Assembly: GCA_031254385.1 (NCBI GenBank)
Contig: JAIRUO010000198.1
Span: forward strand, 1-23,287
Direction of reading: 5' to 3'
DNA length: 23,287 bases
DNA from: Treponema sp.
Lineage (GTDB): Bacteria > Spirochaetota > Spirochaetia > Treponematales > Breznakiellaceae
The notes beneath the pieces are model-generated. The model saw only the letters and a program-made list of their open reading frames with translations. It ran no database searches and was not told where the DNA came from. Numbering within the stretch: the stretch's first letter is position 1; every line of letters begins with the position of its first letter. A program made the translations under genes and the position numbers. Positions 79 through 4,526 of the stretch are shown here, in pieces.

Positions 79-1539
79 ATGAGCAGTGAACAAAGAAAGG
101 GAAATTATCTTTATATTCACCTTACTCTTTTCTCTTTGTTCTTTTCCCTTGTTTTTTGCTTTTGCACCACAAGCGGCAGAACAAACATCACCGAATTGGA
201 AAACAAGGGAACCCTCATCGGGGTAACAACCCCCGATTGGGTAAGGCTCTACCTTGAAAAAGGCGTTTCGGCTTTACAGGCGCAGCCGGAGTACAACGGC
301 AAATATTGCATAGTCGGTGAGGAGAGCGGAACAAACCGTCAGTTCGTCCTTGCCTGGGCGGATCAGGCAAGCGCACAGCAAAGAATAGGCTCGCTGCTCC
401 GCACCAATATCGCCAACCGCTACACAGCCGCAGTAAACGCCGACGCCACTACAAGCGGCAGCATGGTAACCAGCTTGCCTGCAAGCCAATATCAGCAGGA
501 AATTGACAACATATTAGCCGCCGTAGTGAACGTGTCCTACTCAGGAGCGCAGCGCGAAGCCGACTGGTGGAGCCTACGCCGACGCTACGACCCGGACAAC
601 AAGGAAATATACACAGACGAATACACCGCCTACGTCCTCTACACCGTACCCAAAGCAGAGATGAACCGCCAGATAGCGTTAGCCCTGGAAACCAGCGTCA
701 GAGCAGACTCCGCACTTTATGACATCACCATAGCCCTTGCCAGAGACATACTCCTGCAAGGCTACGATGAAAGCGAACTTTTAGATGCCGCCGCCATTAC
801 GCGTACAGCCGCAGACTCTTACAACCCGCCCGGTAGCCCCACAGCCCTTGCGTTAGGCGAAATTTCTCCCTTTGACGAATATAGTATTGGCAGGGACGTA
901 GCCGCAACCATACTTGCAAACTACAGATTATGGAACAACAGCCCCGGCCTTACTCAGTATCTTAATTTAATATGCGCAACACTGGCCATCAACTCACCAA
1001 AACCTACACTATTCAACGGTTATCATGTCTCTATAATCGACAGCCCCGAAATAAATGCTTTTGCCACTCCCGGCGGTCATATCCTTATAAGCCGGGGCCT
1101 CATAAACGCCGCCCCATCCGAAGATGCGCTGGCAGCCGTAATAGCCCACGAGATCGCTCATATCCAGTTGCGCCACGGCCTCCGCACTATACAAACAAAC
1201 AGAGATGCTGCTGACTGGCTCGCCCAATTCAGCCAATCGGGAGCCGCCTTCATCGCTGAGGCAATCAACAACGGCTACTCCCAGACACAGGAATACGATG
1301 CTGACATAGCCGCACTTGCCCTCCTTGCTGCCACAGGCTACAACCCCCATGGCCTAATAGTAATGCTGCGCGAACTCCAAAAAATCCAGCCCGGTATAAG
1401 AGGCGGTTTTAATTCAACGCACCCTAGCCCCACAAGCCGCCTTGTCAACGCCCAAATCGCCGCTGCCCGTTACCCGCAAACAGCAGATAGCCGTGGGGCC
1501 ACGGCAAGGCAAGTCCGGTTTAATGCGGCAAAGAATTAA
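79..1539 (+). CDS. M48-family zinc metalloprotease lipoprotein with an LPP20-like N-terminal half
   Basis: This is a predicted lipid-anchored, envelope-facing metalloprotease. The N-terminus has a positive stretch, a hydrophobic core at residues 11-28 and Cys at 27 and 29, which suits a loose spirochaetal lipobox. Residues about 40-245 form a domain typical of secreted spirochaete lipoproteins that may be LPP20-like. Residues about 270-460 are an M48/Ste24-BepA-type peptidase: HEIAH at 357-361 gives two zinc ligands and the catalytic Glu, and EYDAD at 405-409 gives the third ligand. M48 proteins of this type usually act in envelope protein quality control, and the fusion to an accessory domain may set substrate or location. 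The start was chosen because the signal peptide follows directly; no strong ribosome site is visible. Only 7 nt separate it from the preceding partial gene. Confidence 0.85.
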   Translation: MSSEQRKGNYLYIHLTLFSLFFSLVFCFCTTSGRTNITELENKGTLIGVTTPDWVRLYLEKGVSALQAQPEYNGKYCIVGEESGTNRQFVLAWADQASAQQRIGSLLRTNIANRYTAAVNADATTSGSMVTSLPASQYQQEIDNILAAVVNVSYSGAQREADWWSLRRRYDPDNKEIYTDEYTAYVLYTVPKAEMNRQIALALETSVRADSALYDITIALARDILLQGYDESELLDAAAITRTAADSYNPPGSPTALALGEISPFDEYSIGRDVAATILANYRLWNNSPGLTQYLNLICATLAINSPKPTLFNGYHVSIIDSPEINAFATPGGHILISRGLINAAPSEDALAAVIAHEIAHIQLRHGLRTIQTNRDAADWLAQFSQSGAAFIAEAINNGYSQTQEYDADIAALALLAATGYNPHGLIVMLRELQKIQPGIRGGFNSTHPSPTSRLVNAQIAAARYPQTADSRGATARQVRFNAAKN

Positions 1540-1639: not shown

Positions 1640-1996
1640 ATGAAATTAGCCATAATTGGAAGCAGAGCCATAGAAAATCTAGATTTAAACGAATATATAA
1701 AGGAAAAACCTGATGTTATTATAAGCGGCGGCGCAAAAGGCATTGATACTATTGCATGGGAATGGGCTATTAAAAATAATATTGAAATTATAGTTCATAG
1801 ACCCAATTACAACAAAGACGGAAGATGGGCTGCCTTAAGAAGGAATGATGTAATAATAGATGAAGCCGATAAAATCATTGCATTTTGGAATGGAAAAAGT
1901 ACAGGAACTAAATATGTTATTGAAAGGGCAAAAAGACTAAATAAACCTTTAGAAATTATTCTTATTGGTGAGCAAGAAGACGGTGAAAAACATTGA
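1640..1996 (+). CDS. SLOG-superfamily (DUF2493/YspA-like) nucleotide-binding protein
   Basis: A single-domain Rossmann-like protein of 118 aa. Visible motifs are GSR at residues 7-9 after the first strand, SGGAKGID at 29-36 (glycine-rich nucleotide-binding loop), a conserved HRPNYNKDGRWAALRRND block at 53-70, and FWNGKSTGT at 82-90. These match the SLOG/DUF2493 families related to DprA and LOG proteins, which bind nucleotides or nucleotide-derived ligands; many members sit in phage or conflict loci. The ligand is not known here. A GAGG ribosome site lies 5 nt before the ATG, and a TATAAT at 1619-1624 is a plausible -10 with a poor -35. The 3' end overlaps the convergent XRE gene by 35 bp. The gene is AT-rich like the rest of the 1.6-4.5 kb island. 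Confidence 0.8.
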   Translation: MKLAIIGSRAIENLDLNEYIKEKPDVIISGGAKGIDTIAWEWAIKNNIEIIVHRPNYNKDGRWAALRRNDVIIDEADKIIAFWNGKSTGTKYVIERAKRLNKPLEIILIGEQEDGEKH

Positions 1997-2312
1997 GTGG
2001 CTCAATAAAGTAATGTAGTACCCGCAATTCGTCCTCGTTCATCTCTTTGACCTCCACAATTATTTTCCTTTGCAGGCTTGTCAAATTATGCCCCCTCCCG
2101 GCTATCATTTTAGGTTTCCGGCCCGTTAAGATCCAGTCTTTTGAATAGCCGTACAATTGCTCAATAAGCATGGCGGTACTGTTTGACATTCCGGATTCAT
2201 CCCTAAGAAGCTTGGATATATAGCTGTCAGTTACACTGATGCTTTTGGCAAAAGCCTTTTGCCTTAATTCGCTTTCCAAAATTATGGTTCTTATCCGGTC
2301 TGACAGCGCCAT
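1962..2312 (-). CDS. XRE-family HTH transcriptional regulator, copy 1
   Basis: A 116-aa DNA-binding protein with a Cro/CI-type helix-turn-helix at residues about 5-60: the QKAFAKSISVTDSYISKLLRD run is the typical helix 2-turn-helix 3, and GYSKDWILTG is the usual end of such domains. The C-terminal half may mediate dimerisation. It is nearly identical to the copy at 4060-4416 up to residue about 103; its last 13 residues differ because the repeat ends there and translation runs antisense into the SLOG gene. The MALSDR start was chosen because copy 2 begins there; the upstream in-frame ATG would add six residues that depend on a 2-bp insertion absent from copy 2. It is probably a local repressor that binds the half-sites upstream of it. 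Confidence 0.82.
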   Translation of the reverse strand: MALSDRIRTIILESELRQKAFAKSISVTDSYISKLLRDESGMSNSTAMLIEQLYGYSKDWILTGRKPKMIAGRGHNLTSLQRKIIVEVKEMNEDELRVLHYFIEPLNVFHRLLAHQ

Positions 2313-2325
2313 ATATGGTAAGGGT

Positions 2326-2386
2326 ATCAATAAAAATATAGTAAGTCAATAGTAAATTCTCTTCTTGACATTTATATTTAATCAAT
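2326..2386. promoter_or_regulatory. Putative operator array, left copy (four TCAAT-type half-sites)
   Basis: ATCAAT at 2326-2331, GTCAAT at 2345-2350, CTTGAC at 2364-2369 (the complement of a degenerate GTCAAT) and ATCAAT at 2381-2386 are spaced 19, 19 and 17 bp. The same layout occurs in the right copy, where the third site is intact ATTGAC. Sites about two helical turns apart between divergent promoters suggest binding of the XRE protein, which is an inference. Confidence 0.45.
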
Positions 2387-2394
2387 GTTAAAAT
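2365..2394 (+). promoter_or_regulatory. Rightward sigma70-type promoter with no gene behind it
   Basis: TTGACA at 2365-2370 and TAAAAT at 2389-2394 are separated by 18 bp, as in the right copy at 4467-4496. Here no supported ORF follows: the next gene, at 2605-3837, is on the opposite strand. It may be a relic of the duplication, or it may give an antisense transcript into the 3' end of the Ntn-hydrolase-like gene. Confidence 0.5.
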
Positions 2395-2406
2395 ATAGGT
2401 ATTCAA

Positions 2407-2604: not shown

Positions 2605-3837
2605 TCATTGATAAGTTAAATTGTTTTTTCTTTTAACCCAAACAAATCCATCAACTTTAGATATTATTGCTACATCGGTGGGCCCACCCACAGTGTCCTG
2701 ATCTGTTGAATTATGCCTTCTTAATGAAGTAATGTTAATTAACGCCTCCGCCATCTCTGCTAAATTTATTGTTGGTAATGATGCAACAATATCTAAAATT
2801 GGATCTCTGTATTTTTTAACAATTATTTCTTCTATTATTACATTAACAAAGGAAGCAACGAAGTCATTTCTTGCTTTTTCCTCATTTACTAAACCAGTGA
2901 TCTCTAGAAATTGCAATAATAATTGTGGAAGAATGATATATTGTAGGTCAGGATCAATTCCTCGGATAAACGTATTAATTACATCATCCTGTGCGAAGGG
3001 ATATATTATTGATGATCTATCATTAATAATAGGATTAGGCTCATTCAAATTGTATAGAAAATCAACACCCAATTTTCCAAATATTTCTACTGAACATATA
3101 GAAGGAAATATTTCTTCTTCTCCATATCCAACAAAAACTACTCCAGAATAACCTTTTTGTTTACCGTCTATGGGATAACTAAATAATCCATATAATTTTA
3201 CTTCGAGTATCAAAAGATTAATAAATTCTTGTAGTTGTTTTGCAGCAAGTGAAATATGTAATTCATTTTCTACTACACTTTTGATAAATTCTGTATTGGA
3301 TACAATATATTTACCTGAAAAATCTGGGAAACGTATTTCGGTATTTTTTAATTCATCAATTCGTTTTCTTAATGCAGATGAAAAAAATTTTATAACTTGT
3401 TTTTTTAATGCTGCAGTATCGTCGATTAATTTATCAGCGTATTCAACGTGATAAAAATCCCGGATATATTCAATTAATTTTGAACAGCTTCTTTTGCAAA
3501 TTTTATCCAAATTTTCCAATTGCTTATATTCTATATATTCATATTCAAAATCTGACAAAAATTTAATAAAATTCTTCATCAAATCTTCCAGTTTTTTAAA
3601 TTTATCCTTATCTGTTATCCTGCTACTGTATTCTTTTATTATCAACTTCCAATTAATGCCCATAAATTCTGCCGTGTTATAAATCATAATCCCTATTGGA
3701 ATTTTTTCTGAGATATTAAATATTTTTTCTGCTGTATAGTAAATTTTAGTTTCTCCTGATCCAAGTCTGATGGTTACAGCACTATCAGCGGCGATTGCAG
3801 CCCCCTGACTGTTTAGAATGGCTACTTCTGCTGTCAT
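2605..3837 (-). CDS. Proteasome-like Ntn-hydrolase domain protein of unknown function
   Basis: A 410-aa AT-rich gene with ribosome site GGAG about 7 nt before the ATG. The N-terminus begins Met-Thr and continues with AADS. If Met1 is removed, Thr becomes residue 1 and Asp falls at 17, the spacing of the catalytic Thr1/Asp17 pair in proteasome beta subunits and HslV. A KIF motif follows with Lys at 37, against Lys33 in the classic fold, so the intervening loop would be 4 residues longer. The next strand-like GIMIY and NTAEFMG also fit the fold. The remaining 300 residues are helical and charged, unlike the 170-220 aa HslV or Anbu. The C-terminus has TVGGPTDVAIISKVDGFVWV. I recall an uncharacterised family of this build but cannot confirm it here. 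Peptidase activity is an inference. Confidence 0.6.
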   Translation of the reverse strand: MTAEVAILNSQGAAIAADSAVTIRLGSGETKIYYTAEKIFNISEKIPIGIMIYNTAEFMGINWKLIIKEYSSRITDKDKFKKLEDLMKNFIKFLSDFEYEYIEYKQLENLDKICKRSCSKLIEYIRDFYHVEYADKLIDDTAALKKQVIKFFSSALRKRIDELKNTEIRFPDFSGKYIVSNTEFIKSVVENELHISLAAKQLQEFINLLILEVKLYGLFSYPIDGKQKGYSGVVFVGYGEEEIFPSICSVEIFGKLGVDFLYNLNEPNPIINDRSSIIYPFAQDDVINTFIRGIDPDLQYIILPQLLLQFLEITGLVNEEKARNDFVASFVNVIIEEIIVKKYRDPILDIVASLPTINLAEMAEALINITSLRRHNSTDQDTVGGPTDVAIISKVDGFVWVKRKNNLTYQ

Positions 3838-4059
3838 TATTTTTCTCCTATTACTATATCATTACACTGTTTTTATAATCTGTCAAACAAATTTTTCGAT
3901 AAAGTTAAAAATTAATGAATTTACGCAGAATTTATCGGTGTTTACAGAAATATTTAAGAATACTATACAAATGGCAAGGGGGGCTGGCTTCTCCTTTGTT
4001 GCTGCGTACTTTTGCTCGTCTTCTTCTATTTTCAACTGACCTTCAAATTCATTATATCA
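3838..4059 (-). promoter_or_regulatory. Upstream region of the Ntn-hydrolase-like gene
   Basis: On the minus strand a TTGACA lies at 3881-3886, but the best -10 candidates (such as TATAGT) are badly spaced, so the promoter is uncertain. The half nearest the XRE gene (about 4056-3973) stays open in the XRE frame after two adjacent stops and reads like ordinary coding sequence (EFEGQLKIEEDEQKYAATKE). It could be the lost tail of a longer regulator or chance. No other gene is supported. Confidence 0.35.
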
Positions 4060-4416
4060 CTATGCCTTTCGCTCATATAGCCCAATTATAGAATCTTTGA
4101 GTGGCTCAATAAAGTAATGTAGTACCCGCAATTCCTCCTCATTCATCTGTTCTATATCCACAATTATTTTCCTTTGCAGACTTGTCAAATTACGCCCCCT
4201 CCCTACTATCATTTTAGGTTTCCGACCCGTTAAGATCCAGTCTTTTGAATAGCCGTACAATTGCTCAATAAGCATGGCTGTACTGTTTGACATTCCGGAT
4301 TCATCCCTAAGAAGCTTGGATATATAGCTGTCAGTTACACTGATGCTCTTGGCAAAAGCCTTTTGCTTTAATTCGCTTTCTAAAATTATGGTTCTTATCC
4401 GGTCTGAAAGCGCCAT
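4060..4416 (-). CDS. XRE-family HTH transcriptional regulator, copy 2
   Basis: A 118-aa Cro/CI-type regulator. The helix-turn-helix occupies residues about 5-60 and is identical to copy 1 except Lys for Arg at 17. Substitutions cluster in the C-terminal half (for example DIEQMNEEE against EVKEMNEDE), and most DNA differences in the HTH part are silent, which suggests selection kept both proteins functional after duplication. The C-terminus EPLKDSIIGLYERKA is probably the original one, since copy 1 loses it at the repeat boundary. The gene reads toward the Ntn-hydrolase-like gene 222 bp downstream on the same strand, and away from the 67-aa ORF. It probably represses its own divergent intergenic region. 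Confidence 0.85.
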   Translation of the reverse strand: MALSDRIRTIILESELKQKAFAKSISVTDSYISKLLRDESGMSNSTAMLIEQLYGYSKDWILTGRKPKMIVGRGRNLTSLQRKIIVDIEQMNEEELRVLHYFIEPLKDSIIGLYERKA

Positions 4417-4427
4417 ATGGTAAGGGT

Positions 4428-4488
4428 ATCAATAAAAATATAGTAAGTCAATAGCGAATTTTCCTATTGACATTTATATTTAATCAAT
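4428..4488. promoter_or_regulatory. Putative operator array, right copy (four TCAAT-type half-sites)
   Basis: ATCAAT at 4428-4433, GTCAAT at 4447-4452, ATTGAC at 4466-4471 (the complement of GTCAAT) and ATCAAT at 4483-4488 are spaced 19, 19 and 17 bp. The third overlaps the -35 of the rightward promoter and the fourth lies just before its -10, so binding there would block transcription of the 67-aa ORF. Assignment to the XRE protein is an inference. Confidence 0.5.
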
Positions 4489-4496
4489 GATAAAAT
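4467..4496 (+). promoter_or_regulatory. Rightward sigma70-type promoter for the 67-aa ORF
   Basis: A consensus TTGACA at 4467-4472 and TAAAAT at 4491-4496 with an 18-bp spacer. Transcription would start near 4503, ahead of the ribosome site at 4517-4522 and the ATG at 4527. Confidence 0.65.
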
Positions 4497-4526
4497 ATAG
4501 CTATTCAATTGGATAAAAGAGGTGTT

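Follow-up and report, generated by a model that had tools for sequence, protein, structure and literature searches.

In 2021, 22 proteasome-like families were described for which, as far as the available text of that paper goes, neither a function nor an informative genomic context was given (Fuchs, Alva and Lupas 2021, PMC8665760). PMI-4 is described there as a proteasome homolog with multiple insertions, represented by HDY66466.1 and comprising 501 sequences at 90% identity (Table 1 of PMC8665760). The same paper shows, with the example of connectase, that a monomer of the proteasome fold can act as a ligase (Fuchs 2021, PMC8665760). In the open-licence literature of PubMed Central, which mostly excludes subscription papers, the papers listed included no work on PMI-4 beyond this one. 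Swappable spots in phages and satellites have been reported to hold antiviral systems (Rousset et al. 2022, PMC9122126).

The current work concerns a gene for a proteasome-like enzyme in a stretch of 23,287 nucleotides from Treponema sp. (contig JAIRUO010000198.1), here called the window. A sequence-only reading had taken its product for a proteasome-like Ntn hydrolase of unusual size. The features of the gene are as follows.

2605..3837, minus strand: protease gene (proteasome-like Ntn hydrolase; PMI-4-like, PHROG 5990), 410 aa, ATG start
3832..3834, minus strand: Thr2 codon, predicted N-terminal nucleophile once Met is removed; T in 132 and S in 2 of 134 relatives
3784..3786, minus strand: Asp18 codon (proteasome Asp17), 134/134 relatives
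3724..3726, minus strand: Lys38 codon (proteasome Lys33), 134/134 relatives
3163..3546, minus strand: first helical insert, residues about 98-225, after H1/H2; helices 100-133, 141-163, 176-180, 182-193 and 199-216; hypervariable
2779..2952, minus strand: second variable part, formed by lengthened helices H3/H4 (296-314, 320-353), residues about 296-353; hypervariable; boundaries by our reading
2626..2697, minus strand: C-terminal signature (D/E)TVGGP.DVA.I.K.DGF.W...K, residues 381-404; D388, G397, W400 and K404 in 134/134
3845..3849, minus strand: AGGAG upstream of the protease gene, resembling a ribosome-binding site, read off the sequence
3858..3886, minus strand: promoter-like TTGACA-17-AATGAT 5' of the protease gene, a weak match (10/12)

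The reading frame is open and begins M-T-A-E, followed by AADS and KIF. When numbering starts with 1 at Thr2, Asp in AADS falls at 17, as had been claimed, and Lys in KIF (K38) at 37, not 33. The residues invariant in 134/134 non-redundant loci are D18, S19, K38, G232, G237, G239, G293, D388, G397, W400 and K404, the 134 being 136 loci less two (L064 and L078) in which a stop breaks the enzyme frame and which were excluded from the tree as well. Conservation of Thr2, Asp18 and Lys, which the sequence-only reading had proposed as a check, was thus borne out, with T or S at position 2; the catalytic set is intact in all 134 relatives and altered in none. In total, 2422 database proteins match the protease at E<=1e-3, so the ORF is not a product of chance. 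Among the best 120 of these, the first (P0001) is the window protein itself and two cover merely 71-72% of the query. The names given for the 120 read 'hypothetical protein', apart from three of JGI origin that we take for misnomers: two are nucleoid DNA-binding and one is SOS-regulon dsDNA-binding protein. An alignment of 109 of these 120 relatives displays the conserved N-terminus, AADS, K38 and the C-terminal GGP.DVA...DGF.W...K. The promoter-like match is weak, since the region contains 14 such sites against a shuffle mean of 15.6.

The protein matched no Pfam, NCBIfam or PADLOC profile up to E=1, with 0 families of known anti-phage systems in PADLOC-DB 2.0.0 at that threshold. A single-sequence search of the PDB returned nothing, and the sole sequence link to proteasome beta chains there, a weak one by profile search (E about 0.1), is the C-terminal signature stretch. 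The predicted structure is a two-sheet sandwich with the helix pairs H1/H2 and H3/H4. In structure comparisons, most of the listed alignments with proteasome beta chains begin at Thr2, which is paired there with residue 1 of the beta chain. At E<=0.001, one entry of a viral structure library matched (E 2e-5); it is named 'Proteasome beta type-2 subunit' and comes from a siphovirus. The structural comparison with proteasome-like enzymes suggested earlier has therefore come out in favour of that proposal, and the fold and active site of a proteasome-like Ntn hydrolase are well supported. Conservation of the active site together with the predicted fold makes an active threonine enzyme likely, and the position of Thr2 directly behind the initiator Met predicts a free N-terminal Thr.

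In the predicted structure, the helices of the first insert follow the first helix pair and precede strand 231-237, with insert boundaries by our reading. Extra-long helices occupy residues 296-376, which we read as an H3/H4 insertion. The core fold and catalytic residues are those of 20S proteasome beta subunits, HslV and Anbu, but the protease has 410 aa and carries helical inserts. HslV is compact and insert-free, has about half the length and pairs with HslU; no ATPase partner was seen by eye in the ORF list of the 23-kb window, of which 7 proteins were also run against profiles. Anbu has a long C-terminal H5 helix or coiled coil, whereas the protease ends in strand 397-402 followed by a low-confidence tail. 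The length of 410 aa is usual for the family and not an oddity of this copy. Judged by published description, namely insert layout and taxon range, the protease most likely belongs to PMI-4. It has a beta-like core with Thr1/Asp17/Lys33, no propeptide, and additions after H1/H2 and between H3/H4 as described for that family (PMC8665760). This insertion layout is shared by PMI-3, and relatives of the protease are carried by bacteria, archaea and phages, as given in Table 1 of the same paper (PMC8665760). The protease also matches PHROG 5990, a phage cluster with no function assigned, along its whole length (E 1.9e-78 for the window protein and 6.8e-152 for a Providencia phage copy).

We propose that the enzyme, together with a small gene following it at most loci, is a mobile two-gene threonine-hydrolase module used in conflicts among phages and other mobile elements, in which the small protein acts as an inhibitor in trans or as an adaptor; we consider this proposal about evenly balanced. 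The evidence comes from the loci of the relatives, beginning with the region directly downstream of the enzyme gene. A total of 170 loci were surveyed there. Besides the window and 9 annotated records of phages or plasmids, they comprise the best 80 of 486 genome loci and the best 80 of 151 viral loci, so the survey leans to closer relatives. Removal of 34 loci at 80% identity or more, and then of 5 near contig ends, left 131. An ORF counted as a partner if it was 45-80 aa long and had its ATG no more than 30 nt before or after the enzyme stop. The control consisted of 1190 ends of other ORFs at these loci that reach at least 200 aa, taken as open frames and not as curated genes. By this rule, a partner ORF is present at 105/131 non-redundant loci, compared with 92/1190 control ends. 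Addition of a Shine-Dalgarno rule leaves 87/131 loci and 85/1190 control ends.

In this tally, L064 and L078 were measured from the early stop and are not among the 105; counted from the true enzyme end, both have a partner by the same rule, which raises the number to 107. In these two Bacteroidota copies, the stop interrupts the enzyme frame and the partner ORF beyond the true end is still open. Thirteen further loci contain, by inspection, a partner-like ORF that breaks the rule, through another start codon, a length of 34-37 aa or of 81 aa, an overlap over 30 nt or a start that is 49 nt off. This looser standard has no control, and the ORFs of two of these loci (L027 and L125) are unlike every other partner. 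A partner is absent, by rule or inspection, from 11/131 loci: the window, L001, L002, L013, L037, L044, L045, L051, L060, L080 and L083. L083 has a longer ORF in that position and L002 a TPR ORF. The latter, in Fibrimonas (L002:3330-4217), has 295 aa and an N-terminus of similar appearance (YKNIDEFILDVFP); its interpretation as a partner fusion was not adopted, as the partner profile gives no support. One Bacillus genome (G004) has two enzyme copies (L175 and L177), of which L045/L175 is without a partner. In the window, the profile of 25 partners, which represents one partner group, found no hidden partner (best E 1.5). The small ORF was invisible to the sequence-only reading because the window copy lacks one.

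Of the 105 partners, 68 cluster with that of at least one other locus, with up to 26 members per cluster; among the 92 control ORFs, the number is 4. In 46 related pairs, which are not independent, the differences at codon positions 1, 2 and 3 number 825, 655 and 1322, a pattern indicating that the ORF codes for a protein. The profile from 25 partners of one group finds 67 database proteins; 0 of 25 members of one group match Pfam, and the 55-aa partner of Javan103 has no PHROG match. The model predicted for one partner has three helices at modest confidence (pLDDT 79.7, pTM 0.42). The small ORF was left unannotated in three E. coli regions that were opened and in a Stenotrophomonas phage. Partner ORFs of 49 and 34 aa stand right behind the enzyme gene in L186 and L187 and are missing from the E. 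coli RefSeq annotation. E. coli enzymes followed by such an unannotated ORF include those of strains H3 (WP_000123148.1) and NCTC 13148 (WP_023281761.1). The survey suggests that the enzyme and the small gene form a translationally coupled two-gene operon at most of the loci covered.

Short motifs are shared within each of three aligned partner groups, and two groups contain motifs with an invariant Pro: E-aromatic-x-K-x-[FY]-[FL]-P-K in A5 and ELREWQKxFNPS in A7. Such motifs are what a recognised peptide might show, and they bring to mind a dedicated processing peptidase or protein ligase for which the small protein would be the substrate, cleaved or attached as a tag through a Thr1 acyl intermediate. 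Connectase offers a precedent, being a proteasome-fold ligase with helical additions (PMC8665760). However, the partner groups do not all have a motif in common, many partners have none, and the active site remains intact at loci without a partner. Connectase itself differs from the protease in having its insert at S3/S4 and in lacking H1/H2 (PMC8665760). This explanation appears unlikely.

The inserts and the partner vary much more than the core of the enzyme. For pairs at a core identity of 0.6-0.7, the median identity is 0.63 in the core, 0.20 in the first insert, 0.24 in the second and 0.24 in the partner; in the remaining three bins, inserts and partner are also well below the core, a contrast that is somewhat overstated by the setting of bins on core identity and the alignment of the partner by another method. 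Partner similarity correlates with insert similarity beyond the core, but weakly (partial rank correlation 0.21; 0/500 shuffles as high). The correlation of partner with core beyond the insert is stronger (partial 0.33), so shared descent may account for much of the partner-insert relationship.

Relatives are spread across bacteria and archaea, and the distribution is very patchy. In the order to which the genome of L001 belongs, 3/291 genomes carry the enzyme, the carrier itself counted and two as contig-end fragments; in the family of a Bacillus carrier the number is 3/34, again including the carrier. Among E. coli genomes, 22/5426 match at the DNA level, 9 and 13 of two types. A quick tree joins the window to L001 (SH-aLRT 99) and then to L002 (95), with archaeal rows interspersed among bacterial ones and partner-less rows at several separate places. 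The neighbours of the enzyme gene in genomes belong largely to metabolic and housekeeping Pfam families (25 of 150 families shown), among which a ribosomal S2 match is present. Known defence genes are no commoner beside the enzyme than far from it: in samples from genome loci, covering proteins of up to 600 aa, 58 PADLOC families were matched nearby (148 of 238 sampled) and 122 at a distance (148 of 223). A defence-island neighbourhood was tested in this way and dropped.

Ordinary neighbours, the lack of enrichment of defence genes and carriage by both bacteria and archaea would suit a general quality-control or stress protease that has spread horizontally, with its presence in phages being incidental and without any special role in conflict. 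ATP-independent, 20S-like roles are discussed by Fuchs et al. (PMC8665760). But inserts and a partner as variable as these would be odd for a housekeeping protease, and the very patchy occurrence (3/291, 3/34 and 22/5426 genomes) and the repeated use of cargo sites in prophages and satellites also speak against such a function. We regard this explanation, too, as improbable.

Relatives were also located in mobile elements. The enzyme is found in 13/50,697 phage records, nine of them from Streptococcus, and seven of those nine are satellites; 10/72,556 plasmid records contain it. Four of the 7 satellites were opened, and in each the enzyme gene stands behind a Gp49-like/HTH pair, close to the element's end. 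The pair is common to the satellites by DNA, and Pfam was run on one pair (Javan103). In Javan421, further genes including RelBE follow the enzyme gene; Javan342 and Javan99 have the same pair, but another large gene or none in that place. One prophage copy lies at the prophage end after the endolysin. Another copy is on the same strand between Q-region and holin genes, and that of a Stenotrophomonas phage is antisense, beside a holin. The copies on a Ruegeria megaplasmid and an Enterococcus plasmid are near recombinase genes, and that on a Pantoea plasmid is amid phage genes. A Porphyromonas phage copy, among head and tail genes and between those for head and neck, is not at an obvious cargo site.

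Both E. coli types occupy exchangeable positions. In type 1 (H3/TW10722), the enzyme is antisense between Q and a methylase gene; in LZHX12, a different gene pair without a Pfam match is found at this site. The lambdoid antisense cassette from Q to the DNA methylase gene can be seen with the enzyme at L186:11744-13491 and with the pair lacking a Pfam match at L194:2236-3724. Pieces of the Q/methylase region match in 4454 E. coli genomes, 9 of which hold 80% or more. In type 2, the enzyme gene directly follows the repressor in a prophage that we read as Rac-like. The repressor stretch is common to the same 13 genomes (12 over at least 80% and one at 58%), and the downstream flank occurs in 78 genomes. 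Five others of these were opened (KL53, B18271, 23CRST046, WEM25 and NCTC11023); other genes, HicAB in WEM25, take the place of the enzyme. In L187 and L189-L193, the cassette between the repressor and ydaE is accordingly exchangeable, holding the enzyme, HicAB or uncharacterised genes, and it is a candidate hotspot for exclusion genes. PADLOC matches among the alternative cargo at the Rac-like site are marginal (2/10 proteins).

Because the enzyme gene adjoins repressor, Q and holin genes, it could be supposed that the enzyme regulates its own prophage, cleaving or stabilising a repressor or lysis protein and so setting induction or lysis. The copies of E. coli H3/TW10722 and Stenotrophomonas are, however, oriented opposite to the adjoining phage genes, and there are chromosomal copies beside ordinary genes as well as archaeal and plasmid copies; such regulation is therefore quite unlikely. 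Placement in satellite and prophage cargo sites gives indirect support to the defence role guessed earlier for this group, while the absence of PADLOC enrichment beside the enzyme gene does not.

The sequence-only reading had also drawn attention to the surroundings of the gene in the window, where the following features are found.

1988..2406, no strand: direct repeat copy 1 (XRE gene and its divergent promoter region)
4092..4508, no strand: direct repeat copy 2, 94% identical along one stretch of 300 nt and 93% along another of 94 nt
1962..2330, minus strand: XRE-type HTH regulator downstream of the protease gene (HTH_3 E 1.1e-6), likely start ATG at 2312
4060..4416, minus strand: XRE-type HTH regulator upstream of the protease gene (HTH_3 E 5.2e-7)
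1640..1996, plus strand: SLOG/DprA-like protein of 118 aa (YAcAr, E 1.3e-9), not part of the module

Duplicated XRE genes do flank the protease as 93-94% identical repeats, about 2.1 kb apart with one copy on each side, and the nearby SLOG-type protein is likewise real by its YAcAr match. The C-terminus of XRE copy 1 differs from that of copy 2, at the junction with the SLOG gene. Recombination between the XRE copies would excise the protease gene together with one of them; the gene therefore seems to have been inserted by homologous recombination. Six window neighbours were compared with the related loci, and the M48 peptidase alone has a relative near a protease gene, in the spirochaete locus L001. 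There, the protease gene comes after the M48 peptidase and before maf/rpsB-like genes (names by our reading). The M48 peptidase gene of L001 (4657-7011), the nearest relative, is related to window positions 79-1539 and differs in orientation. Unrelated HTH genes adjoin some protease relatives, namely the Gp49/HTH pair of satellites and a prophage repressor. Recurrent XRE or SLOG partners of the window type were dropped, as tblastn at E<=1e-3 found relatives of these genes at 0/169 related loci (3-21 kb each, many cut by contig ends). The arrangement is truly present in the window, but a local conflict island in which the XRE and SLOG neighbours work with the protease is very improbable in view of this result and of the resemblance of the duplication to a recombination scar.

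The mobile two-gene module remains the preferred reading. Once the initiator Met is cleaved off, Thr1 would be free to work with the equivalents of Asp17 and Lys33, and the variable helical insert and elongated H3/H4 probably recognise targets or the partner. As exchangeable cargo, the operon would pass from one chromosome, prophage or phage satellite to another; its most likely use is in the competition among mobile elements, where it would exclude other phages. In the simplest model, the small protein, made together with the enzyme, would keep it inactive in trans or steer it. Inhibition in trans would suit an enzyme that, like this one, lacks a propeptide. A cue from infection would then free the enzyme, leading to cleavage of a host or phage protein. 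That the partner is a trans inhibitor or adaptor is a guess, with somewhat less than an even chance of being right.

A conflict role between mobile elements has an even or slightly better chance, given where the gene is placed, how it is exchanged for others at the same sites, its patchy occurrence and its rapid evolution. The cargo sites speak for phage conflict because of the precedent of Rousset et al. 2022 (PMC9122126). On the other side are the lack of PADLOC enrichment, the housekeeping neighbours, the archaeal carriers, the site in the Porphyromonas phage and the marginal PADLOC matches of the alternative cargo. The window copy has no small gene and lies between duplicated XRE genes; thus, it may be an orphan, be differently controlled or have its partner elsewhere. 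A bolder form of the proposal is that the enzyme and its hypervariable partner are an undescribed phage-exclusion system of phages, satellites, bacteria and archaea, in which the inserts sense infection and the partner is a trans-acting propeptide or a tag ligated by the enzyme to phage proteins. This is put forward tentatively, as a possibility on the doubtful side.

The results provide the family to which the protease most likely belongs, PMI-4, probably the largest among those new in 2021, with a recurrent partner gene, a placement as phage and satellite cargo, and copies in E. coli prophages that can be tested in the laboratory. If the conflict role is true, proteasome-type proteolysis joins the chemistry of prokaryotic immunity, and the phage-exclusion reading, if true, would mean that prokaryotes use the proteasome fold for an immune effector.

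Among known systems, type II toxin-antitoxin modules are similar in consisting of two genes, as the small partner is adjacent at 105/131 loci, though absent in the window. The 11/131 loci without a partner, including the window and L001, may speak against a strictly required antitoxin. The antiviral hotspots of P2 phages and P4 satellites are similar in that small swappable cargo lies between conserved genes, including beside the repressor (PMC9122126), and they differ in that the words proteasome, Ntn and protease are absent from the main text of that paper (PMC9122126). The enzyme family itself is already known in outline, while the two-gene arrangement and the cargo placement are not part of the available text of Fuchs 2021 (PMC8665760). 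In that text, no context suggesting a function is given for the homologs, whereas here a recurrent small downstream gene and placement as exchangeable cargo were found.
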